Shown here: positions 9,585-20,668 of the stretch, one piece after another
Layout: every line of letters starts with the position of its first letter
Position numbering within the stretch: position 1 is the stretch's first letter
From: Brevibacterium atlanticum
GTDB lineage: Bacteria; Actinomycetota; Actinomycetes; Actinomycetales; Brevibacteriaceae
Direction: 5' to 3'
Length of the DNA: 64,000 nt
NCBI RefSeq assembly: GCF_011617245.1
Contig: NZ_CP050152.1
Location: 3,400,503 to 3,464,502 of the forward strand
Translations under genes and position numbers: made by a program
The notes under the pieces: model-generated
Seen by the model: the letters and a program-made list of their open reading frames with translations, nothing else
Told to the model about the DNA's origin: nothing
The model's database searches: none

Positions 9585-9670
9585 GTCGTCGCTCACCCGG
9601 CGACCACCTCGGCGGAGGATTCCCGCCCCCGCATCTGCCGGTCGTCGCTCACCCGGTGACCACCTCGGCG
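9585..9670. repeat. 30-bp direct repeat duplicating the 3' end of ltrA
   Basis: GTCGTCGCTCACCCGG plus the next 14 nt occurs at 9585-9614 and again at 9641-9670 with one mismatch. The second copy contains the last codons and the stop of ltrA; the first is in the spacer. Both contain the CCACCTCGGCG motif that is common in this window. Confidence 0.75.
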
Positions 9671-10845
9671 TCGTATTCCGAGCCTCCGCCCTTCGGCGGG
9701 ATGACGATGAGGGTGATGACGATGATGATCATGAAGAACGTCGTGAGGAACGTCGGGATCGGGATGATCGGGTCGAGGAGGACGAGGACCGCACAGACCG
9801 GGACGACGGTATTGACGATGCCGTTCGCGTTCGCGCGGATCGCGAGCAGCCACACGCCCAGCACGAACACGGCGATGGGCACCGAGACCGTGAACGTCGC
9901 CAGCACCGGATCGAGGGCGCTGTCTCCGAGCTGGGAGTCGGCTTCGACGCCGACTCCGGCCGAGAACGCACCGGCGGCGGCGAAGATGAAGTAGTGGCCG
10001 TACCCGTACTTCAATGACCCGCCGAGGCTGCCGATCGCCCGGTGGTGCGGCGGCCAGAAATAGATCCACCACATCGCGGCGGTGACGGTGAGGCTGAGGA
10101 CGCCGAGTGAGATGAGCGGGACGATCTCCTCGACCTCGGCGAGGGCGTCGAAGATCGTGTCCGCCGAGGCCAGCAGGCTCTCGCCGAGCACGATGATGGT
10201 GAAGCAGCCGTAGCGTTCGGTGATGTGGTGCGGGTGCCACGGGGTATTGCCTCGGGTCTCGGCGACGACCGGCACCGCCACCTCGGCGAGGATGAGCAGG
10301 CCGAGGCCGACCGCCCGCATGACGGGGTCGTCGATGGCCAGCCAGGCCACCCACAGGACCTGCGCGATCCCGATTCCGCAGGCGTAGACGATCGTCGTCC
10401 ACCGTGTGGGCCCGGCGCCGCGGGCCGCGCGCAGCCATTGCGAGATCATGATGATGCGCATGAGGACGTAGCCGGCGATGAGGAGCCGGAAGTCCCCGTC
10501 GGAGAACACCGGCCCGATGCCGGCGGCGAGGATGAGCACCCCGCCCATCTGCACGATCGTCAGCACCCGGTAGAGCCAATCGTCGGTGTCGAACGAGGTG
10601 GCGAACCAGGTGAAGTTCATCCACGCCCACCAGATCCCGAAGAACACGAGCAGATAGTTCGTCACACCCTCGCCGAGGCGGCCGGCCGTGACCGTGTCAT
10701 GCAAGTGCGAGGACGCGATCGAGACGGCGATGACGAAGACGAGGTCGAAGAAGAGTTCGAGCGTGCTCGCCGCCCGGCCCTCCTCCCCCGGATCGCGAGG
10801 ACGCATCGGGACGAGGCGGAAGCGTGCGGAGGACGTCGAGGTCAT
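9649..10845 (-). CDS. ltrA: low-temperature-requirement protein A family membrane protein
   Basis: LtrA-family multi-pass membrane protein of 398 residues, biochemical role unknown. It has STLELFFDLVFVIAV near the N-terminus, the family hallmark, then about 11 to 12 hydrophobic segments with HHITERYGCFTIIVLGES in the middle and WWIYFW further on, both typical of LtrA. The start is uncertain: the ATG at 10845 gives the usual N-terminus, while an in-frame ATG at 10872 would add 9 residues. Neither has a strong ribosome binding site; TAAGCT at 10886-10891 is a plausible -10. Its 3' end is duplicated downstream (9585-9670). Confidence 0.85.
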   Translation of the reverse strand: MTSTSSARFRLVPMRPRDPGEEGRAASTLELFFDLVFVIAVSIASSHLHDTVTAGRLGEGVTNYLLVFFGIWWAWMNFTWFATSFDTDDWLYRVLTIVQMGGVLILAAGIGPVFSDGDFRLLIAGYVLMRIIMISQWLRAARGAGPTRWTTIVYACGIGIAQVLWVAWLAIDDPVMRAVGLGLLILAEVAVPVVAETRGNTPWHPHHITERYGCFTIIVLGESLLASADTIFDALAEVEEIVPLISLGVLSLTVTAAMWWIYFWPPHHRAIGSLGGSLKYGYGHYFIFAAAGAFSAGVGVEADSQLGDSALDPVLATFTVSVPIAVFVLGVWLLAIRANANGIVNTVVPVCAVLVLLDPIIPIPTFLTTFFMIIIVITLIVIPPKGGGSEYDAEVVTG

Positions 10846-10908
10846 GTCAGGTGCTTTCGCGGTATGGTTCATCGGGACTGAGGACAGCTTAGGACGAACT
10901 GAGCCGAG

Positions 10909-12354
10909 TCACCACGCACTCTGCATGAGGTGCACGAGGACGAGGGTGAAGGCAAGCTGTGTGGACAGCAGCCAGGTCCGCGACCGCTCCGAGACCGCGG
11001 CCAGAGAGACGAGCAGCCACGGCACCATGAACAGCCAGATCCGCTCCACCTCCGCCCGGCTCATGCTCGACAGATCCGCGGCGACGACCATGCCGACGGC
11101 CGCCACAGAGAGGATGAAGACGACATTCCGACCGCTCCCCTTGTTCAGCGGCGCCCGACTGCGGTCCAACAGCGCAGTGCCCATCACTGCGATGCCTGCG
11201 CCGAGGGCGGGGCCGGTCGCGCACAGGAGCGCCGCGAGGTTCGCCCATAGCCAGTAGACCGGGGGCCGGCTGGCGGCGAATCCGTCGAAGTAGCGGTCAC
11301 GGAGCACCGGATAGGCCTCCCACCATTCGAAACCGCCGAGGGTGAAGAGCGCGACGACGATGAGCCCCCCGCCGATGAGCCAGGGCAGCGAGCGCAGGTT
11401 CCGCGCAATGACGAACACGGCGAGGACGACGAGTCCGAGGAGGGGGAACCCATAGCTCGCATATGTGCCGAGACCGAGCAGGACTCCGGACACAAGGCCT
11501 CCGAGGATCGCTCGCCCACTCATGAACCTCGTCGCCTGCCGCTGCTCGGGCCGAACGGTCCCCCAGACCAGGACCGCCACCGCCCACGCCCCCGTGGTTG
11601 CGAACACCGCATCGGCTGAGACGGCCAGCCAGATGGCAGCCGGGGCGCACACCAGGAACGGCGCGATGCTGCGCGCGGCCGCCTCGGCGCCGAGGCTGCG
11701 GAGGGTCGACATCACGGCGGCGGGGATCGTCGCCGCCAGCAGGGTCACGACCAATCCGATCGCCCACGTCGAGGACACCCCACAAGAGAGCAGGAGTGCG
11801 AAGAACAGCACGGCCCCCGGTGGATGCCCGGCCAAGTGAACGGGCAGATTGTCCGGTGCCGCGAGTGGGATCCGTGCCACGTACCCGGTGAGCAGGTCGG
11901 GCACAGAGGAGAGGAGCCCATCGGCGGCGAGGGCCCGCGCGCTCGGCAGGTACTCCTCGGCGCTGTCGAGGATCCCGCCGAGGTGGCCGAACCCGTCGAT
12001 CGCGTCGAGGCTGAGCATCCATGCCGCCGAGGTGAGAGTCATCAGTGCCAGCAGCGCCCACCACCCCGTTCGGCGTGCGAGGCCGAACCCACCGAGGGCC
12101 ACGGCCACGCCGATCACCACGGCGAATATGCTGCCCGGTCCGAATCGCGGGCGCAGCTCGGCGAACAGCGGCGGAAATGACAGCGCTTTGACCTCCCAGC
12201 CCGTCAACGGAGGAACCGCGATCGCGACAGCGATGAGGGCGAGAGCCGAAGCGGCGCCGATGACCTCGGCTCGGCCCGCGCGAGTCTCGGTCCTGCCTGC
12301 ACATGTCTCGGCCCGGCTGGCGCGGATCGGCGAGGTGTGTTCTCGTTCCGGCAT
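10909..12354 (-). CDS. polytopic membrane protein, probable GT-C-type glycosyltransferase
   Basis: 481 residues with about 10 to 12 hydrophobic segments. After the second or third segment comes an acidic loop ILDSAEEYLPSARAL, then HLAGHPPGAVLFF, the HPPG motif seen in actinobacterial GT39/GT87-like membrane sugar transferases. Such enzymes move a sugar from a polyprenyl-phosphate donor to an acceptor outside the membrane. The ATG at 12354 is the only reasonable start. It is the last gene of the unit MTAP-epimerase-this gene (18-bp gap to the epimerase). Donor and acceptor are unknown; the GT2 protein at 17935-18618 is a natural candidate to make the lipid-linked donor. Confidence 0.7.
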   Translation of the reverse strand: MPEREHTSPIRASRAETCAGRTETRAGRAEVIGAASALALIAVAIAVPPLTGWEVKALSFPPLFAELRPRFGPGSIFAVVIGVAVALGGFGLARRTGWWALLALMTLTSAAWMLSLDAIDGFGHLGGILDSAEEYLPSARALAADGLLSSVPDLLTGYVARIPLAAPDNLPVHLAGHPPGAVLFFALLLSCGVSSTWAIGLVVTLLAATIPAAVMSTLRSLGAEAAARSIAPFLVCAPAAIWLAVSADAVFATTGAWAVAVLVWGTVRPEQRQATRFMSGRAILGGLVSGVLLGLGTYASYGFPLLGLVVLAVFVIARNLRSLPWLIGGGLIVVALFTLGGFEWWEAYPVLRDRYFDGFAASRPPVYWLWANLAALLCATGPALGAGIAVMGTALLDRSRAPLNKGSGRNVVFILSVAAVGMVVAADLSSMSRAEVERIWLFMVPWLLVSLAAVSERSRTWLLSTQLAFTLVLVHLMQSAW

Positions 12355-12371
12355 GGGTCTGGGACCGTCCC

Positions 12372-13565
12372 TCACACCCGGGTGCCGCCGGTCTGCCGAG
12401 CGTCGACGTCGTCGCGCATCGCATCGACGGCGTCCCGCATCGGGGCGTGGGCGAATTCGGTCATCCCCTGAGAGAAACCGATCTGCGGAGCCCAACCGAG
12501 TTCTTCGCGGATCCGCTGCGCCGAGGCGGTGATGTGGCGGACATCTCCGAGGCGGTATTCCCCGGTGACGACAGGTGTCGGCCCGTTGAGAGCCGAGGCG
12601 AGTGCCTCGGCCATGTCCCCGATCGTGTGGACGTCTCCGCTGGCGACGTTGAAGGCTCTCACCGTCCCGGGCTCCTGTGCTCCCGCCCATTCGAGGGCGG
12701 CGATATTGGCTCGTGCGACATCGCCGACGTGGATGAAGTCCCGCCGTTGCCGGCCGTCTTCGAACACTCGGGGACGTCCGCTGTTTTGGAGCACCGAGCG
12801 GAAGATCGAGGCGACGCCGGCATACGGCGTGCCCTGCGGCATGTTGGGTCCGTAGACGTTGTGATAGCGGAGGAACGCGGCGCGTCCTCCGCTCGCCCGC
12901 GCCCATGCGGAGGCGAGATGTTCCTGCGAGAGCTTCGTCGCGGCGTAGACGTTGCGGGGATCGGCGGGCGCATCCTCGGTGATGAGCTCGGGTTCGAGTG
13001 GTCGGCCCGTGCGTGGTGAGATGGGATCGAAGCGACCGGCGTCGAGGTCAGCGACGGACCGCGGTCCCGCCGCGACCGGACCGTGTTCGTCCCGGTAGGC
13101 ACCTTCTCCGTAGACGACCATTGAGGAGGCGAGGACGAGGCTGGATATCTCGTGTCTGGTCATCGCCGCGAGCAGGATGGCTGTGCTGAGATCGTTGCTC
13201 GCGACGTAGTCGGGGCTGTCGGCGAAGTCGACGCCGAGGCCGACCTTCGCGGCCTGATGGCTGACCGCGTCGATATCCGGCAGCAGCCGATCGAGCAGAG
13301 CGGATTCGGCGACGTCGCCGCGGACGATGCGCAGGCGAGCCGGCTCGGTCTGCGATGCCCCGGTTGGAGACATCAGCATTCCGGCGAACTCGTCGCCGAA
13401 GCGCCCGAGGATCTCGTCGGCATCAAGGGCGGTGGAATGGACGTCGGCGCGGAAGCTGTCGAGGACGCTCACCCGCCACCCCGCGCGCAGAGCCGCGGCG
13501 ACCACCTCGGCGCCGATGAAGCCTGCGCCTCCGGTGACGAGCAGATGCGGAGGGGACGACGTCAT
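12372..13565 (-). CDS. NAD-dependent epimerase/dehydratase family protein
   Basis: Extended short-chain dehydrogenase acting on a nucleotide sugar. The 397 residues begin with the NAD-binding GGAGFIG (12-18); the catalytic Ser is in LASSMVVYGEG, and the Tyr/Lys pair in NVYAATKLSQEH. RYHNVYGPNMPQGTPYAGV and RRDFIHVGDVA match UDP-glucose 4-epimerase-like members. An insert with DAGRFDPISPRTGRPLEPE (about 180-200) is unusual. The ATG at 13565 overlaps the upstream phosphorylase stop by 4 bp. The sugar is not identifiable from sequence. Confidence 0.88.
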   Translation of the reverse strand: MTSSPPHLLVTGGAGFIGAEVVAAALRAGWRVSVLDSFRADVHSTALDADEILGRFGDEFAGMLMSPTGASQTEPARLRIVRGDVAESALLDRLLPDIDAVSHQAAKVGLGVDFADSPDYVASNDLSTAILLAAMTRHEISSLVLASSMVVYGEGAYRDEHGPVAAGPRSVADLDAGRFDPISPRTGRPLEPELITEDAPADPRNVYAATKLSQEHLASAWARASGGRAAFLRYHNVYGPNMPQGTPYAGVASIFRSVLQNSGRPRVFEDGRQRRDFIHVGDVARANIAALEWAGAQEPGTVRAFNVASGDVHTIGDMAEALASALNGPTPVVTGEYRLGDVRHITASAQRIREELGWAPQIGFSQGMTEFAHAPMRDAVDAMRDDVDARQTGGTRV

Positions 13566-14461
13566 CGGGCGACCTCCTCGGCAGCTGACGTGTTCCCTCC
13601 GCCGGCGCACTCGCCGGCCGGGGCAGCAGCCGGGACAACGGGACGGGCGAGGATCCGCCGGGTGACCGCCTCGGGGACCAGCCTCGGCGGCGTGTAGTCG
13701 GGGTCGATCACGGCCACGATGGCGGCGAGCGCCGCGCGGATCCGCGGCTGGGCGGCGCTGAGCCGGTGGAGCACCGTGTCGGCGTCGACCGCGTCGTCAT
13801 GCGTCTCGCCGGCATCGGAGTCAGTGACGAACGAGAGGTTGACGATGCCCATGCCGAGTTCCTGCGCGAGCGCGGCCTCCGGGTATTGGGTCATGTTGAT
13901 GATGTCGGCGCCGTCGCGGCGCAACACCCGTGACTCCGCCCTCGTCGAGAACCGCGGGCCGTCGATCACCGCGATCGTGCCGAAGTCGGGAATCTCCTCG
14001 CCGAGTGTCCGGACGGCGTCACGGGCGATGGCAACGAGTTCGGGGGTGAAGGGATCGGAGAAGGGCAGATGGATGAGCAGTCCTTCGCCGGAGTAGCTCG
14101 ACTCGCGTGTCGTCGTGCGGTCGAGCATCTGGTCAGGGATGACGAAGCCGCCGATACCCACTTCGGTGCTGATCCCGCCGACGGCCGAGGAACTCACGAC
14201 CACACGGACCCCGAGGGAGGCCAGGGCCCACATATTTGCCCGATAGTTGATCTCGTGCGGGGCGAGCGCATGCCCGGCTCCGTGCCGAGTGACGAAGGCG
14301 ACCCGTCGGCCAGCGAAGTCACCGACCGTGATCGTGCCCGACGGCGAACCGTACGGAGTCGCAATCTCGACGTCGATGCGGGAGTCCTGATCGAGGAGTT
14401 CGTAGAGTCCCGACCCGCCGATGACGGCGATGCGCGGGCGTGTGTCGTCTGTCTCGTCCAT
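13562..14461 (-). CDS. S-methyl-5'-thioadenosine phosphorylase / purine nucleoside phosphorylase family
   Basis: Cleaves a 5'-modified adenosine or purine nucleoside with phosphate to base plus ribose-1-phosphate. The 299 residues include IAVIGGSGLYELL, the phosphate/ribose motif TRHGAGHALAPHEINYRAN, SSSAVGG, DGPRFSTRAESR, INMTQYPEAALA and FVTDSDAG, the order seen in MTAP. It has a C-terminal extension of about 35 residues rich in Ala, Gly and Pro. The ATG at 14461 follows AAAGGA. It heads the unit with the epimerase and the membrane transferase. Being tied to sugar genes, it may supply or recycle a sugar-1-phosphate, but simple MTA salvage is equally possible. Confidence 0.85.
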   Translation of the reverse strand: MDETDDTRPRIAVIGGSGLYELLDQDSRIDVEIATPYGSPSGTITVGDFAGRRVAFVTRHGAGHALAPHEINYRANMWALASLGVRVVVSSSAVGGISTEVGIGGFVIPDQMLDRTTTRESSYSGEGLLIHLPFSDPFTPELVAIARDAVRTLGEEIPDFGTIAVIDGPRFSTRAESRVLRRDGADIINMTQYPEAALAQELGMGIVNLSFVTDSDAGETHDDAVDADTVLHRLSAAQPRIRAALAAIVAVIDPDYTPPRLVPEAVTRRILARPVVPAAAPAGECAGGGNTSAAEEVAR

Positions 14462-14528: not shown

Positions 14529-14573
14529 ATTGTGTCGCGGCAGCGGTGCCGGGGTGCCGGGAATCTGCTTACG
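14529..14573 (-). promoter_or_regulatory. CGTAAG box plus -10 of the MTAP-epimerase-membrane protein unit
   Basis: On the minus strand CGTAAGC starts at 14573 and a -10-like CACAAT starts at 14534, a distance of 39 bp. The same box and the same 39-bp distance occur upstream of the molybdoenzyme gene and of the GT2 gene. The -10 is weak, as expected for an activated promoter. Confidence 0.55.
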
Positions 14574-14688
14574 AGACGATGACAGAACCGCCTCGCACAG
14601 ATCACCTGTCCCCTACAGGTCGCGTGTCCCCGTACAGCGCCTGTCACACGCGCAGCGCTTCTCCCCCGGGACTTGTCTGTCCTCGAAC

Positions 14689-14733
14689 CGTAAGGAAATC
14701 CGGACGCGCCGCGGAGCTCGGTCAGCTTAGTGT
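14689..14733 (+). promoter_or_regulatory. CGTAAG box plus -10 of the molybdoenzyme gene
   Basis: CGTAAGG starts at 14689 and the -10 box TAGTGT at 14728 (39 bp). TAGTGT is 6 nt before the ATG at 14740, so the transcript is leaderless. The sequence CTTAGTGTCGG is identical to that of the GT2 promoter. Confidence 0.65.
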
Positions 14734-14739
14734 CGGGGA

Positions 14740-16008
14740 ATGCCGCTACCGCCGCCTGAAGACCGCCCCTCTGCACCGGACGACCGCCTCACCGCACTCC
14801 GCCAAACCGTGCATGAGCGCCTCCGCGTACCGGATGACGACGTCGTGCGGGGACCCCGCACCACCGTCGTCATCGGCCGGCTGCTCGGACTCGCCTTCGC
14901 ACTCTGCTTCGCCACCGGCCTGTTCAGCCACTTCCTCCAGGATCCGCTGCCGTGGATGCGTTTTCCCACCCGTCCGGCCGCGCTCTACCAAGTCACTCAA
15001 GGTGTGCACGTCGCAGCGGGGCTCGCTTGCGTCCCTCTGCTGCTGGCGAAGCTGTGGACGGTCTATCCGCGGCTCTTCGTCTGGCCGCCGATCCGCTCAG
15101 GGCTCCACGCCCTCGAACGCGGCTTCGTCGGCGTGCTCGTCTCCGCGAGCCTGCTCGAACTGACGATCGGGGTGATGAACATATACCACTGGTATGCGTG
15201 GCCGTTCTCCTTCCGCACCGTCCACTACGCGCTCGCATGGATCATCGTTGGCGCGCTGCTCGCGCACATCGCCTTCCAGCTGCCGACGATCCGCGCCCAC
15301 TGGCGTGCGAATCCCACGCCGAGGCGGCCTCAAGCTTCCGTACGCACGGTGCCTGTACATGGCCGCGACGTTGCGAGCAGCGAATCCGTCGCTGCCGTCG
15401 ACAGCGACGTCACTTTCGATCGGCGCCTCTTCCTCGCGTCGATCTTCACAGCGGTCGGCGCGATCACCGTGTTCACTGCAGGGCAGTCGACGCGACTGCT
15501 CTCGGGGCTCAATCTCTTCGGCCCCCGCAACTACGGCGATGGGCCCCAGGGGCTTCCTGTCAACCGCACAGCCGCCGCTGCCGATGTCCTGACCACCGCC
15601 GTCGACCCGGCGTGGACCCTCACGGTCCGGGACGGAGCGACGGTGCACGGATTCAGCCGCGCCGACCTCCAGGAGATGGAGCAGACGACGGCGACGATTC
15701 CGATCGCGTGCGTCGAAGGATGGTCGACCTCGGCGAGGTGGACCGGCGTGCGAATCCGTGACCTCTTGGCACGGGTCGGGCTCGACTCACATTCGCGACT
15801 GCGGATCACGAGCCTGCAGACGCGAGGCGGCTATGCGGTCAGCGAGATGGGCCCGGAGTTCACCTCCGACGACCTCACCCTCATCGCACTAGAGCTCAAC
15901 GGTGAGGTCCTCGACCTCGACCACGGATACCCAGCGAGGATCATCGCCCCGGGGCGACCGGGGGTGCTGCAGACGAAATGGATCAGAACGATCGAGGTAC
16001 TCGAATGA
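14740..16008 (+). CDS. molybdopterin-dependent oxidoreductase with cytochrome b-like membrane domain
   Basis: 422 residues. The first half (about 45-190) has four to five hydrophobic segments with spaced histidines (FSHFL, GVHVAAG, NIYHWY, VHYALAW), which could bind heme like a formate-dehydrogenase gamma-type b cytochrome. A further hydrophobic segment (about 228-245) leads into a sulfite-oxidase-type Mo domain. There the ligand cysteine is in PIACVEGWS and the domain ends PGVLQTKWIRTIEVLE. The Mo domain probably faces outward. The start is set by the -10 TAGTGT 6 nt upstream. The next gene overlaps by 4 bp. The electron partner is presumably the quinone pool; the substrate is unknown. Confidence 0.87.
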   Translation: MPLPPPEDRPSAPDDRLTALRQTVHERLRVPDDDVVRGPRTTVVIGRLLGLAFALCFATGLFSHFLQDPLPWMRFPTRPAALYQVTQGVHVAAGLACVPLLLAKLWTVYPRLFVWPPIRSGLHALERGFVGVLVSASLLELTIGVMNIYHWYAWPFSFRTVHYALAWIIVGALLAHIAFQLPTIRAHWRANPTPRRPQASVRTVPVHGRDVASSESVAAVDSDVTFDRRLFLASIFTAVGAITVFTAGQSTRLLSGLNLFGPRNYGDGPQGLPVNRTAAAADVLTTAVDPAWTLTVRDGATVHGFSRADLQEMEQTTATIPIACVEGWSTSARWTGVRIRDLLARVGLDSHSRLRITSLQTRGGYAVSEMGPEFTSDDLTLIALELNGEVLDLDHGYPARIIAPGRPGVLQTKWIRTIEVLE

Positions 16009-16592
16009 CACGCAACCAAGCCGATTCGGTTCGGACACCTACGGCCGTACGGACTCCCACGACCAATGACAACCGCTTCCGCGCAGTCCTCATCCTCGCC
16101 GGAATCTGCCTCACCATCTACGGGGTCGTCCTCGTGCTCACAGGGCTTCGCATCAACAACATCATCGGTCTCGGACTATGGCTGGCCGCCGCCGTCATCG
16201 CCCATGACTTCGTCCTCGTGCCGGCTGTCACGGTGGTCGCTCGTCTGCTCTTTTCACGCAGGCCGGCTCCGTCGCCGACTGCCACCGGCGCACCGGACGT
16301 GCGACGCCGCGGATCCGGCCACCGTCTCCTTGCAGTCGTCCGTCCGAAGTCGGCTGGCTCTGCGTTCGCCGGGTCGAGATACGAGGCCATCACCCGGTCG
16401 CTGCTCGTCGCCGCCTGCTTGGTCTCTGTGATCGTCGCTCCCGAGATCTGGGCTCAACGGCGCGGGGTCGCTAATCCGACGATCCTGCCGGGCGACTATG
16501 CCCAGAACCTGCTGGCACTGTGGGTCGTTGTTCTGGCGGTCTCCGCAATCGTGCTCATCGTCGGCCTCATCGCAGTCCGCCGGTCCCGGTAA
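16005..16592 (+). CDS. small membrane protein co-translated with the molybdoenzyme
   Basis: 195 residues with about four hydrophobic segments (roughly 30-48, 55-80, 132-150 and 167-190), a charged loop rich in Arg, and a basic C-terminus ending RRSR. The ATG overlaps the molybdoenzyme stop (ATGA), so it is coupled to it and is likely an accessory or anchoring subunit. I do not recognise a named family. It ends 4 bp before the convergent methyltransferase. Confidence 0.72.
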   Translation: MTRNQADSVRTPTAVRTPTTNDNRFRAVLILAGICLTIYGVVLVLTGLRINNIIGLGLWLAAAVIAHDFVLVPAVTVVARLLFSRRPAPSPTATGAPDVRRRGSGHRLLAVVRPKSAGSAFAGSRYEAITRSLLVAACLVSVIVAPEIWAQRRGVANPTILPGDYAQNLLALWVVVLAVSAIVLIVGLIAVRRSR

Positions 16593-16595
16593 ACC

Positions 16596-17273
16596 TCACC
16601 GCCGACTCGCCGATCGCAGTGCGAGGAAGGCGCGGGAGCCATAGGACCAGCTCTCTTCGACCTGCAGCCCCAGACTCTCGGCAATGCGAGTCAGACTCCG
16701 ACTGCCGACCTGTGCCCAGGGGAAAGCTGCACTCGTGCGGCCGCCGCTGTCTCGGACTTCGGCGAGGAATACTCTGTGTTCGTCCGGCTCCTGGGCCGTT
16801 TCGACGATGACGAGTCCGCTCGGGTCAATGAGTCGACGGGCACGCTCGAGGAGTCGCGCGGGATCACCGCCGATGCCGATGTTCCCGTCGAGGAGCAGTG
16901 CCGCGTTCCACTGACCCTCGAGTGGCAGCGGGTCACCGATATCACGGCAGAGCACAGGCAGCCCCTCCGCCTGTGCCATCGCCACGGCAGCGGCGGAGAT
17001 GTCGATGCCGAGAGCGAACCGCTCCGCCGCGATCGCCGCACGCACAATTCGCCCTGGCCCACAGCCGAGGTCGATGACTGCCCCCGTTGCGCGGGCGATC
17101 ACGGTGAGGTCGGCGGCATCGGCCGGCCCGGTGTAGCGATCGACGTCCATGAGCGTCGGCGTCTCGTCAACACCGGCCGCCGTGAGCAGCAGCGGCCCTC
17201 CGCGGACGAGGGCGCGCTCATAGGGTCGGGCACCACCGTGGCCGAAGCTGGTCGCTGCGACCGCTTGGCTCAT
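16596..17273 (-). CDS. class I SAM-dependent methyltransferase
   Basis: 225 residues with the SAM-binding motif I VIDLGCGPGR (about 66-75), the acidic residue ending strand 2 in LGIDIS, CRDIGDPLPL, and LLLDGNIGIGGDP. The rest is a Rossmann methyltransferase of normal length. It is the third gene of the GT2-DUF2064-methyltransferase unit and overlaps the DUF2064 stop by 4 bp. The acceptor is unknown; by context it is a sugar or a glycosylated lipid or peptide. Confidence 0.87.
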   Translation of the reverse strand: MSQAVAATSFGHGGARPYERALVRGGPLLLTAAGVDETPTLMDVDRYTGPADAADLTVIARATGAVIDLGCGPGRIVRAAIAAERFALGIDISAAAVAMAQAEGLPVLCRDIGDPLPLEGQWNAALLLDGNIGIGGDPARLLERARRLIDPSGLVIVETAQEPDEHRVFLAEVRDSGGRTSAAFPWAQVGSRSLTRIAESLGLQVEESWSYGSRAFLALRSASRR

Positions 17274-17938
17274 GATGCTTGCCGACTCTCGGCGTCGAGG
17301 GCGAGCTCCGCCGACTCCTCACTCTCGGAAAGACTCCCGACTAGCTTCGCCAGCGGCGACCACGGCAGCAGACGGGCGACCGCGTGCAGGTCATCGATCG
17401 TGTCGATGTCGCGCAGCGTCGGCAGCAGTTTTGTGCGCCGTCCCGCAGTGCGCAGCCGGTCGAGCTGGATGGCGCCCGTGTCCGGCCGGGACATCGGCAC
17501 GCCTCTGACCAACTCACCGTCGGGCTCGCGCAGGCCCAGCGCCCAGAACCCGCCGTCGGCAGCCGGACCGAACCAGGCGTCGCAGTCCTCGGGCCATTCG
17601 GCGCTCAACCGGTCGAGGACTCGACGATCGAGCTGCGGGGAGTCCATGCCGATGAGCACGGTCGGACCCGTGCAGACATCGAAGGCGGCGGCAATCCTCT
17701 CATCGAGCCCGCCGGTGACCTGCTCGATGATCTCCCACCCGGTGAAGTCCCTGGGCAGGGACGTGCCGTCGAAGCAGAGGATCGTGCGCGTCCATGTACA
17801 GGAGTCGACGGCGGTCGTGGTGATGTCGATGCAGGCCGCGGCCACCTCGGCGGCCTGGGTGAGGCTCAGCGGAGGGTGGAGACGGGTCTTGACCTTCCCC
17901 GGCACGCATTCCTTGGCGAGCATAATGAGCGTGGTCAT
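17270..17938 (-). CDS. DUF2064 / TIGR04282-type glycosyltransferase-like protein
   Basis: 222 residues of the GT-A-like family annotated elsewhere as arsenosugar-biosynthesis transferase. Landmarks are the N-terminal MLAKECVPGKVKTRL, which resembles a nucleotide-binding P-loop of nucleotidyltransferases, then IGMDSPQL (about 124-131) and GPAADGGFWALGL (about 146-158). It overlaps the GT2 gene upstream and the methyltransferase downstream by 4 bp each. No radical-SAM or ArsM gene is near, so an arsenosugar role is not supported here; nucleotide-sugar or sugar-phosphate transfer is more likely. Confidence 0.83.
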   Translation of the reverse strand: MTTLIMLAKECVPGKVKTRLHPPLSLTQAAEVAAACIDITTTAVDSCTWTRTILCFDGTSLPRDFTGWEIIEQVTGGLDERIAAAFDVCTGPTVLIGMDSPQLDRRVLDRLSAEWPEDCDAWFGPAADGGFWALGLREPDGELVRGVPMSRPDTGAIQLDRLRTAGRRTKLLPTLRDIDTIDDLHAVARLLPWSPLAKLVGSLSESEESAELALDAESRQAS

Positions 17939-18618
17939 CGCTTCTCCTGTCCGATCAGGCGGGCCATGTCGGTGATTGCGGTAAGGGTTCCGCGCAGCGT
18001 CCCGGTCACTTTCGACCGCCCGATGCGGGGGAAGTAGCTCACGGTGACCTCACGAATGCGCAGGCCTGCGCTCCCGGCCCGCAGCAGCATTTCGAGCGGA
18101 TAGCCGCTGCGCCGATCATGAAGGTCGAGGCCGAGCAGGACCTGCCTGCGCATCGCCCGCATCGGTCCGAGATCGTGGACGACAATGCCGGTGCGCAGCC
18201 GGATGAGTCCGGCGAGGACGCGGTTGGCCACCCGGGCATGCAGTGGCCAGGCATGCCGTTCCGCCGCGTGCCTGCGCCCGAGGACGAGGTCCGCCTGCCC
18301 GGCGAGGACGGGTCCGGTCACTCGGTCGAGTTCGGCGAGGTCGAACGACCCGTCGGCATCGCAGATCGCCACCACCTCGGCGGTGGCCGCGAGGACTCCG
18401 GCGTATACGGCCGATCCGAACCCGCGCCGGGGTTCGTCGATCACGTGGGCGCCGAGCGCGCGGGCCACCTCGGCGGAGGAATCGGTCGAACCGTTGTCAA
18501 CGACGATCGGCCGGACGTTCGGCGGCAGCCCCGCCAGCACTCCGGGCAGGGCGGCGGCCTCATCGAGGCACGGGAGGACGAGATCGATGAGAGCGCTGCG
18601 CGGTGGTGATTTCGGCAT
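17935..18618 (-). CDS. family 2 glycosyltransferase (polyprenyl-phosphate sugar synthase-like)
   Basis: Transfers a sugar from a nucleotide donor, probably to polyprenyl phosphate at the inner face of the membrane. The 227 residues contain DLVLPCLDEA, VVDNGSTD, the metal-binding AICDADGSFDL (DAD), GRRH, and a C-terminal amphipathic stretch without clear membrane helices. The order matches DPM1-like GT2 proteins. The ATG at 18618 is 6 nt after TAGTGT, a leaderless start. It heads the unit GT2-DUF2064-methyltransferase, all coupled by 4-bp overlaps. Confidence 0.87.
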   Translation of the reverse strand: MPKSPPRSALIDLVLPCLDEAAALPGVLAGLPPNVRPIVVDNGSTDSSAEVARALGAHVIDEPRRGFGSAVYAGVLAATAEVVAICDADGSFDLAELDRVTGPVLAGQADLVLGRRHAAERHAWPLHARVANRVLAGLIRLRTGIVVHDLGPMRAMRRQVLLGLDLHDRRSGYPLEMLLRAGSAGLRIREVTVSYFPRIGRSKVTGTLRGTLTAITDMARLIGQEKR

Positions 18619-18624
18619 GCTCCG

Positions 18625-18669
18625 ACACTAAGGATTCCGGACCGGCACAGACGCGGTCGAATCCTTACG
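18625..18669 (-). promoter_or_regulatory. CGTAAG box plus -10 of the GT2 unit
   Basis: On the minus strand CGTAAGG starts at 18669 and TAGTGT at 18630, 39 bp apart; the ATG at 18618 follows 6 nt after TAGTGT. Box, distance and -10 are the same as at the molybdoenzyme promoter. Confidence 0.65.
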
Positions 18670-18728
18670 AAATACGGACAAAGCCCGCGACGACCCGCAT
18701 TTCCTCGATTGCGGACCGTGCGGGTTCC

Positions 18729-18740: not shown

Positions 18741-19502
18741 ATGACCGACACCCCGCCCGATTCCACCCTGCGCGACCGCCGGATCCTCCTCGTCGAGGAC
18801 GACCCTACCGTCGCCGAGGTGGCCCGCAACTATCTGCATACAGCCGGGTTCCTCGTCGACGAGGTCACCGATGGGTTCCAAGCCATCGACGCCGTCCGCG
18901 ACGTCCGCCCCGACCTCGTCGTCCTCGACCGGAAGCTGCCGGGCATCGACGGGACCGAGGTGTGCCGGCGCCTGCGGGGCTTCACCGATACTCCCGTGCT
19001 CATGCTCACAGCACTCTCGGCCACGGAGGACCGCATCGACGGGCTCGAGTCCGGGGCCGATGACTACCTGACCAAGCCGTTCTCCCCACGCGAGCTCGTC
19101 CTCCGGGTTCGGTCGATCCTCAAGCGCACGGTCGACGAGGCGACTCCCGAAGCGCCCTTCGCGCTCGGCCCCTTCCAGCTCGATGCCTCGGCCCGGAAGG
19201 TCAGCCGGGACAGCCGACCGCTCGAGCTCTCGGCCCGGGAGTTCGACCTTCTTGCCTTTTTCCTCAAGCATCCGAATCAGGTCTTCGACCGGGAGACGCT
19301 GCTGCGCTCCGTCTGGGGCTGGGAGGTCGGCGACCTGTCGACGATCACCGTCACGGTGCGCCGACTGCGGGAGAAGATCGAGGACGATCCTTCACACGCC
19401 GTATTCCTCACCACGGTGTGGGGTGCCGGCTACCGTTTCGACGCTGACGTCGACACCGATGGTGATGTCGATGCTGACGGTGACACCGAAGGGGTGCGCT
19501 GA
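18741..19502 (+). CDS. OmpR-family response regulator
   Basis: 253 residues. The receiver domain has the acidic pair ED/D (19-21), the phosphoacceptor Asp 63 in VVLDRKLPG, MLTALS and the Lys in YLTKPFS. The winged-helix domain (about 140-235) ends LTTVWGAGYRF. The C-terminal 15 residues are Asp-rich with a VDTDGDVDADGD repeat. The ATG is leaderless. The histidine kinase follows with a 1-nt overlap (TGATG). Position between the GT2 unit and its kinase makes it the prime candidate to bind the CGTAAG boxes. Confidence 0.93.
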   Translation: MTDTPPDSTLRDRRILLVEDDPTVAEVARNYLHTAGFLVDEVTDGFQAIDAVRDVRPDLVVLDRKLPGIDGTEVCRRLRGFTDTPVLMLTALSATEDRIDGLESGADDYLTKPFSPRELVLRVRSILKRTVDEATPEAPFALGPFQLDASARKVSRDSRPLELSAREFDLLAFFLKHPNQVFDRETLLRSVWGWEVGDLSTITVTVRRLREKIEDDPSHAVFLTTVWGAGYRFDADVDTDGDVDADGDTEGVR

Positions 19503-20668
19503 TGCCCTTACCGCTTCCCGATCTCACGATCATCTTCCTCGTCGCGATCGGCTGTTCCCTCCTCGTCGGCGCACTCGGGGTCTTCGCCCTGTGGCTGGCC
19601 AGACGCCGCACCCTGACGGTGCGGCTGACGATCATCGTGGCGACGACGCTGATCTCCGTGCTCGCCGGGATGGTGGCGATCGCCTCGGCGATGTACCTTT
19701 CCGAACACGACCTCATCGTCTTCCTCACGGTGGCCGCGGCCTCACTCGTCTCTACCGCCCTGGTCACCCTCATCCTCGGGCGGATCGTCGCTCGTGAGCA
19801 CCGGGAGCTGCGGGCGTTGGCCGCCGAGGTGGGACTGGGACGCCGCCTCGGAGAGGTCCCCGATGAGCGGGACGCCTCGGAGACTGCACAGCTGCGAGCC
19901 GAGCTTGTGGCCACGAGCGTCAGGCTTGCTGACACCCGCGATGAGGTCGCCGCCCTCGACCGCTCCCGGCGGGAGCTCATCGCGTGGATCGCCCACGACC
20001 TGCGGACGCCGATGGCCGGCCTCAAGGCAATGGCTGAGGCCCTCGAGGACGGAATGGTCGACGACCCCGACCGCTATTATGCGAACATCCGCGTGCAGGT
20101 CGATCGGCTCTCCCGCATGGTCGATGACCTCTTCGCGCTCTCCCGAATCCAGTCTGGCAGCCTCGAACTCGAGAGCATCGAGGTCAGCCTCTATGACCTC
20201 GTCTCCGATGCGGTGGCAGATCTGCGCCTGGTGGCGGCGTCCAAGCAGATCACCGTAGAAGCCCGCGGACTCAAGGACCTCACCGTCATCGGCGACCCCA
20301 AGGAGCTCACCCGCGTCGTCGAGAATCTGCTGATGAATGCCCTCCAACACTCCCCTGACCGCGCCGAGGTGGTGCTCGAGACGAGCCGTCACAGTGACGG
20401 TCAGGCGGTGCTCACCGTCTCTGACTCAGGCGGCGGCATTCCCACCGAAGCTCTCACCGAAATCTTCACAACCGGGTGGCGTGGGACTCCGTCGCGGACT
20501 CCCGACGAACCCATCGGTGGCGGCGACGTGCTCTCCGGCGGGGCGGGGCTCGGGCTGGCGATCGTGCGTGGGATCGTCGAAGCCCATGCCGGCACCGTCG
20601 GCGTCTCGAACACGCAGGTAGGAGCCTGCTTCGAGGTGCGTCTGCCGGCGGCTGTCCCCGTGGAGTGA
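19502..20668 (+). CDS. membrane sensor histidine kinase
   Basis: 388 residues. Two hydrophobic segments start close to the N-terminus and a third lies around 75-95, with almost no extracytoplasmic loop, so it probably senses within the membrane. The H-box is WIAHDLRTPMAG (His about 166), the N-box NLLMNALQHS, followed by SDSGGGIP and GAGLGLAIV. It is partner of the response regulator upstream by a 1-nt overlap. The signal is unknown; by context it relates to the envelope or redox state. Confidence 0.92.
   Translation: MPLPLPDLTIIFLVAIGCSLLVGALGVFALWLARRRTLTVRLTIIVATTLISVLAGMVAIASAMYLSEHDLIVFLTVAAASLVSTALVTLILGRIVAREHRELRALAAEVGLGRRLGEVPDERDASETAQLRAELVATSVRLADTRDEVAALDRSRRELIAWIAHDLRTPMAGLKAMAEALEDGMVDDPDRYYANIRVQVDRLSRMVDDLFALSRIQSGSLELESIEVSLYDLVSDAVADLRLVAASKQITVEARGLKDLTVIGDPKELTRVVENLLMNALQHSPDRAEVVLETSRHSDGQAVLTVSDSGGGIPTEALTEIFTTGWRGTPSRTPDEPIGGGDVLSGGAGLGLAIVRGIVEAHAGTVGVSNTQVGACFEVRLPAAVPVE

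Follow-up and report, generated by a model that had tools for sequence, protein, structure and literature searches.

A direct-repeat CGTAAG box at three promoters beside an OmpR-type two-component gene pair in Brevibacterium atlanticum

Gene organization of the locus

We analyzed a 64,000-nt stretch of the Brevibacterium atlanticum genome (hereafter, the window; assembly GCF_011617245.1, NZ_CP050152.1, positions 3,400,503–3,464,502 of the forward strand; the genome is a single contig of 4,156,794 bp), in which a CGTAAG box precedes three operons next to a two-component gene pair. The box is probably the control switch of this pair for a cluster of unknown function. The response regulator (RR) of the pair (18741–19502, plus strand), the proposed binder of the box, is of OmpR/PhoB-type, with Response_reg (PF00072) and Trans_reg_C (PF00486) domains above the cut-off. 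Its gene is overlapped by the open reading frame of a sensor histidine kinase with HisKA and HATPase_c domains (19502–20668, plus strand), which is probably its cognate partner. Hydropathy of this kinase revealed three hydrophobic stretches near the N terminus and no large extracytoplasmic domain.

The boxes head three units. The GT2-DUF2064-methyltransferase unit (operon 1, minus strand) starts with a GT2 glycosyltransferase (17935–18618; PF00535), whose resemblance to the dolichyl-phosphate hexose transferase model was far below the cut-off, and continues with a DUF2064 (CofC-like) protein (17270–17938; PF09837, TIGR04282 below cut-off) and an S-adenosylmethionine (SAM)-dependent methyltransferase assigned by a family match (16596–17273). 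The molybdoenzyme-TM204 unit (operon 2, plus strand) starts with a membrane-anchored molybdopterin oxidoreductase with a sulfite-oxidase-type domain (14740–16008; PF00174), followed by TM204, a small membrane protein with an uncertain start codon and no family above the cut-off (15978–16592). The MTAP-epimerase-TM483 unit (operon 3, minus strand) comprises an MTAP-like phosphorylase (13562–14461; PF01048), an NAD-dependent sugar epimerase/dehydratase (12372–13565; PF01370) and, probably, TM483, a polytopic membrane protein of uncertain start and without a family match (10909–12360). For the MTAP-like protein, the methylthioadenosine phosphorylase models were below cut-off, and the methylthioinosine phosphorylase model NF006599 was barely above it (223.3 vs 223). 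The assigned families suggest a pathway that may combine a sugar attached to a lipid or polymer (GT2, epimerase, DUF2064) with methylation and a membrane molybdoenzyme. The cluster is flanked by an LtrA-family gene (9649–10872).

Three promoters with a box, a second half-site and a common spacing

A first-pass annotation of this DNA had placed CGTAAGC/G at 14573 (minus), 14689 (plus) and 18669 (minus), each 39 bp from a −10-like hexamer, and these coordinates proved correct. The box of the MTAP-epimerase operon (TGTCATCGTCT followed by CGTAAGC; 14567–14584, minus strand) consists of two half-sites with an 11-bp period; its CGTAAGC (14573–14567) is paired with the weak hexamer CACAAT (14534–14529, minus strand). 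The box of the molybdoenzyme operon (TGTCCTCGAAC followed by CGTAAGG; 14678–14695, plus strand) has its CGTAAGG at 14689–14695 and is paired with TAGTGT (14728–14733, plus strand). At the GT2 operon (TGTCCGTATTT followed by CGTAAGG; 18663–18680, minus strand), CGTAAGG lies at 18669–18663 and TAGTGT at 18630–18625 on the same strand. The distance was 39 bp in all three pairs. The annotation's further claim that the molybdoenzyme and GT2 promoters share sequence also held: CTTAGTGTCGG is common to both, and in both the hexamer ends 6 nt before the ATG. Both transcripts are predicted to be leaderless, starting within or close to the start codons at 14740 and 18618, and the MTAP transcript to be leadered, with a start close to 14522 (minus strand).

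Each box is preceded, at exactly 11 bp, by a second half-site, TGTC, which the annotation had overlooked (TGTCC, TGTCC and TGTCA in the three sites). A third half-site was sought downstream of CGTAAGG, and none was seen. CACAAT of the MTAP promoter does not fit TANNNT, but in all three of the other Brevibacterium loci examined (L001–L003) the MTAP gene was likewise preceded by the box with its TGTC half-site, and CACAAT followed at 39 bp. The spaced motif CGTAAG-N30..36-TANNNT occurred twice in the window (0.07 expected), and none of 100 shuffles contained at least two. CGTAAGS alone was not rare in the window (4 observed vs 3.9 expected); the information resides in the spacing, the half-site and the conservation.

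Operator architecture across actinobacteria

A contig scan yielded 459 GT2 relatives. The analysis was restricted to the best 80 and covered every one of these loci. From these loci and the window, 61 sites with CGTAA[GCT] and TANNNT at 38–40 bp were collected and reduced to 35 non-redundant sites with dissimilar spacers, none of which came from the window. The selected columns (CGTAA[GCT] and TANNNT) are invariant by construction, and the position weight matrix (PWM) built from the 35 sites favors such sites. Beyond the letters fixed by selection, the consensus of the box was CGTCCgcgtTTCGTAAGGa. The half-site GT was found at offset 11 in 27/35 sites, whereas each of the remaining offsets between 6 and 19 had it in 0–4/35. 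Between about +10 and the −10 element, the spacer carried almost no information, apart from a T and a C immediately preceding the −10. The consensus of the −10 in the family was TnCnTAgnGT. No −35 element was recognizable in the 35 sites. The PWM gave 171 matches with a score >10, compared to 10 for one column-shuffled PWM. Within the 64 kb of the window, only three places exceeded this score, namely the GT2 (29.4), molybdoenzyme (23.4) and MTAP (19.1) boxes.

Around 137 strong boxes (80 loci plus window), TANNNT was located at 38–40 bp in 67 cases, at 28–30 bp in 8 cases and elsewhere within 12–79 bp in 4 cases; the bare CGTAAG gave an identical spacing peak (53/61). The 39-bp distance reported by the annotation is thus exact at the three window promoters but not absolute across the 80 loci, where the spacing was mostly 38–40 bp with 39 bp as the commonest value. 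TANNNT was missing at both 38–40 and 28–30 bp in 62 of the 137 boxes. Among these, a weaker −10 was enriched at 38–40 bp (22 vs ~0.9 expected per distance). The 38–40 and 28–30 bp classes are one helical turn apart, which suggests that RNA polymerase is contacted from one face. Two features of OmpR/PhoB-type regulons were present: the operator is a direct repeat with a period of 10–11 bp, and it precedes the promoter in a constant helical phase.

Several loci carried variants of this arrangement. Promoters with the box at 28–29 bp from the −10, one helical turn nearer, were seen at L050, L053, L045, L058 and L033. At five loci of Kitasatospora and relatives (L025, L030, L031, L032 and L035), the GT2 promoter has a second box 27–125 bp further upstream, in addition to the one in the usual position. 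A reversed box was located upstream of the epimerase in 22/72 epimerase loci, mostly from Streptomyces and relatives (L016, L042, L048, L066, L073–L075, L077 and others). Its C is at a near-constant −47 to −49 relative to the extrapolated start, ~50 bp from TANNNT. This reversed box is an orientation-flipped variant of the same operator.

Conservation at orthologous loci

Boxes were counted as [TC]CGTAA[GCT] between positions −260 and +60 relative to the extrapolated start of GT2, and as [TCA]CGTAA[GCT] within −260 to +40 for the molybdoenzyme and MTAP genes. The GT2 box was present in 48 of the 50 loci with a divergent RR gene within 500 bp, and in 44 of the 50 it was followed by TRNNNT 36–42 bp on. 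Orthologous loci, which the annotation had proposed as a check, thus conserve both the box and its spacing. At GT2 loci without a divergent RR gene, the box was found in 7/30, and all seven are in genomes with an RR orthologue elsewhere. The box was also found at 31/62 molybdoenzyme genes (10 of these 31 with [TCG]ANNNT 36–42 bp on) and at 7/26 MTAP genes (7/7 with [TCG]ANNNT at that distance). One genome (G064) contains two copies of the GT2 cluster, one beside the RR gene and the other unlinked (L127 and L027), with a box at each.

Exclusivity of the box in the genome

The whole genome of 4.16 Mb was searched with three models. R1 describes the box plus promoter (23 sequences, 39-bp spacing) and includes the three window sites; R2 describes the box only and also contains the window's own sites; R3 (16 sequences, 39-bp spacing) was built without any Brevibacterium sequence. 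In each search, 150 first-look candidates were scored (of 2080 for R1, 954 for R2 and 1846 for R3). R1 detected three sites with E ≤ 10, which were the GT2 (7.6e-10), molybdoenzyme (4.3e-7) and MTAP (1.5e-5, R1 including this site) boxes of the window, and R2 detected the same three sites only. The other genomic matches that would have refuted the annotation's proposal were thus absent at E ≤ 10 with R1 and R2. R3 ranked the GT2 site first (7e-5) and the molybdoenzyme site second (0.02), followed by a place elsewhere (0.65).

Co-occurrence of the box and the response regulator

The R1 search was extended to 57 same-genus genomes, with 90 candidates scored per genome under stricter filters and RR orthologues accepted at E ≤ 1e-90. 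An RR orthologue was found in nine genomes. R1 matches with E < 0.01 were obtained in 4/9 genomes with the RR and in 0/48 genomes without it. Each of the four box-holding genomes contained three sites, located before the GT2, molybdoenzyme and MTAP genes. Two of the three other box-holding genomes (G023 and G004) had contributed sequences to R1, so these positives are not independent, in contrast to the 48 genomes that lack both the RR and a match. A fourth site in G023 (C17:164138; R1 E 0.049, R2 E 0.41) has no −10 at the usual spacing and was dismissed as probable noise.

The second comparison comprised 30 genomes with a GT2 gene that lacks an adjacent divergent RR gene. Here, RR orthologues were delimited by a gap in the E-values, which jump from 2e-66 to 2e-57. 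An orthologue was present in 14 genomes, and R1 matches with E < 0.01 were obtained in 8/14 of them compared to 0/16 of those counted as RR-less (including G070, locus L046, in which the RR gene is cut by the contig end). A box with a PWM score >12 was found within 400 bp upstream of the RR gene in 10 of 15 RR regions from these 14 genomes, as against 122 of 2000 random windows. Three of the ten boxed regions are beside a second GT2 copy, two are beside the methyltransferase of the cluster, and five are on stretches without a cluster gene. The annotation's choice of the adjacent OmpR-type RR as the best candidate regulator is supported by this co-occurrence, by the boxes at the 10/15 relocated RR genes and by the 11-bp tandem repeat.

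In four RR regions without a cluster gene on the stretch (L131, L133, L134 and L137), a divergent box was located 26–90 bp upstream of the RR gene, which suggests autoregulation or another target. The gene next along in L133 seems to resemble a SAM hydroxide adenosyltransferase.

The helix of the RR that we take to be the recognition helix was nearly invariant among the orthologues compared. Its core, STITVTVRRLR, is discussed below for the genomes in which no box was detected.

Discussion

We consider it probable that RR 18741, once phosphorylated, activates the three operons (GT2, molybdoenzyme and MTAP-epimerase) as a dedicated local regulon. In this mechanism, the kinase would phosphorylate the RR, and an RR dimer in head-to-tail arrangement would occupy the two half-sites with their 11-bp period, (C/T)GTC(C/A)-N7-CGTAAG(G/C). 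The dimer would cover approximately −62 to −45 relative to the predicted starts, just upstream of the −35 region, and could thereby recruit the housekeeping RNA polymerase to promoters with a −10 element and no recognizable −35. The three operons would be switched together and would represent the whole regulon detected in this genome. The adjacent RR is proposed as the regulator because it co-occurs with the box, because boxes lie near 10/15 relocated RR genes and because the box is an 11-bp tandem repeat. The annotation had attributed the three promoters to one activator: the single regulator is supported by the co-occurrence and the repeat, and the activator role is inferred from the fixed position and helical phasing of the box.

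Several observations weigh against this proposal, above all against an exclusive role of the RR. The main one is that five of the nine RR-holding same-genus genomes (G002, G003, G015, G046 and G049) have no box, either by R1 at E < 0.01 or beside the RR gene. In all five, the RR and kinase are intact and the helix core STITVTVRRLR is unchanged; the drift of the recognition helix that would be expected in these RRs was not seen. Two of them (G002 and G046) carry a divergent cluster ~180 kb away (GT2 49–50% and molybdoenzyme 39–41% identical) in which no box reaches a PWM score >12 and no gene is preceded by one. The RR and the cluster can therefore coexist without the box. Likewise, no R1 match <0.01 was obtained in 6/14 genomes with a non-adjacent RR, 5/15 RR regions are boxless, and one of the ten counted as boxed (L148, on a stretch without a cluster gene) has a weak and reversed box. 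Two GT2 loci with an adjacent RR (L021 and L076) lack the box, and the box, as defined, is absent at 31/62 molybdoenzyme and 19/26 MTAP genes. The Fisher tests on co-occurrence (7e-12, 3e-4 and 5e-4) are overstated, as the genomes are related. Finally, R3 misses the MTAP site in the whole genome, and the exclusivity was obtained by scoring only 150 of about 950–2080 first-look candidates per search.

In the other three boxless genomes (G003, G015 and G049), no GT2 exceeds 37% identity, and the molybdoenzyme has no match at E ≤ 1e-15. In the RR regions of the five boxless genomes (L118–L122), an LtrA-family gene starts ~100 bp from the RR gene in 4/5 (one match is partial), and none was found in L118 at E ≤ 1e-5. 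This adjacency looks as if the intervening cluster had been removed or never inserted. The divergent cluster of the two same-genus genomes (L154 and L155) differs in gene order: the GT2, DUF2064, methyltransferase, molybdoenzyme, MTAP and epimerase genes run in one direction with TM483 divergent, and these loci are boxless.

The five RR-holding same-genus genomes in which no box was detected, including the two with a divergent cluster, would also fit a scenario in which the box is read by another regulator, e.g., MtrA or a different OmpR-type RR, with the neighboring RR as a bystander. The models and solved structures nearest to RR 18741 are those of MtrA, RegX3 and PhoB, MtrA of the MtrAB system being both the best NCBIfam model and the best solved structure, and the genome encodes other OmpR-type RRs, including one that is 45% identical. 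However, RR 18741 scores far below the respective NCBIfam equivalog cut-offs (213.9 vs 300 bits for MtrA and 204.7 vs 296.2 bits for PhoB), and the box and the RR gene co-occur, often as neighbors after relocation. Many sites would be expected of a global regulator; only three were found in this genome at E ≤ 10 among the candidates scored, and this version was rejected. We therefore regard a bystander RR as quite improbable. It is also unlikely that the RR acts from the boxes as a repressor, or as both activator and repressor, so that kinase activity would turn the cluster off. The roles of individual sites may differ, as the box is reversed in 22/72 epimerase loci and some boxes face away from a lone RR gene. 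Nevertheless, the box lies upstream of the −35 region in a constant helical phase (38–40 or 28–30 bp) and at promoters without a −35 element, which is the pattern of an activator, whereas repressors usually bind within the core promoter or across its edge.

Two further explanations were rejected. The rigid pairing of box and −10 is reminiscent of the two elements of an alternative sigma factor promoter, with CGTAAG as the upstream element. The usual spacing between −35 and −10 is only about half of 39 bp, the box is a tandem repeat, and its co-occurring partner is an RR, which makes this reading very hard to sustain. Chance, or shared descent without function, can draw on the frequency of CGTAAGS in the window, which is as expected. 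Yet the spacer is not conserved while the half-site and the box flanks are, and together with the exclusivity in 4.16 Mb at the sensitivity of the models, the spacing peak and the co-occurrence with the RR this leaves either possibility with a negligible probability.

Operators of this general kind are already known from OmpR/PhoB-type systems with direct-repeat operators. As a tandem dimer, Mycobacterium tuberculosis PhoP binds direct repeats in which 4 bp separate the 7-bp motifs (PMC4832192). The box described here has the same 11-bp period. In contrast to the TCACAGC motif of PhoP, it is of CGTNNG-type and serves a local regulon of three operons. For RR 18741, MtrA and RegX3 also gave higher scores than PhoP. 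CutR/CutS of Streptomyces is likewise a two-component system that is conserved in actinobacteria and acts on promoters directly, but the CutR site is TAWATAAA (PMC12802291), unlike the CGTAAG box. Neither the motif nor the regulon was found in the literature searched, which included few subscription papers and in which a mention of the motif alone could be missed. The motif-letter matches that were checked turned out to be a construct sequence, an ArgR site and a primer. A word search of a review on Streptomyces coelicolor two-component systems returned nothing on these genes, although the S. coelicolor orthologue may have been studied under another name.

On a wider view, which we offer tentatively and do not favor strongly, the pair and its targets may form an undescribed actinobacterial signaling module: a short membrane-embedded sensor with its own operator code, dedicated to one pathway of glycosyl transfer, methylation and molybdoenzyme oxidation. 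This code would comprise forward boxes at 38–40 or 28–30 bp and, mostly in streptomycetes, reversed boxes at a fixed distance before the epimerase. If this is true, finding the signal would reveal the purpose of the pathway, and the three promoters could be used as reporters in the search for it. The box provides a testable operator sequence and a target list for a two-component system of Brevibacterium, Microbacteriaceae, Streptomyces, Kitasatospora and others, and it ties genes without a known pathway together as one co-regulated unit.

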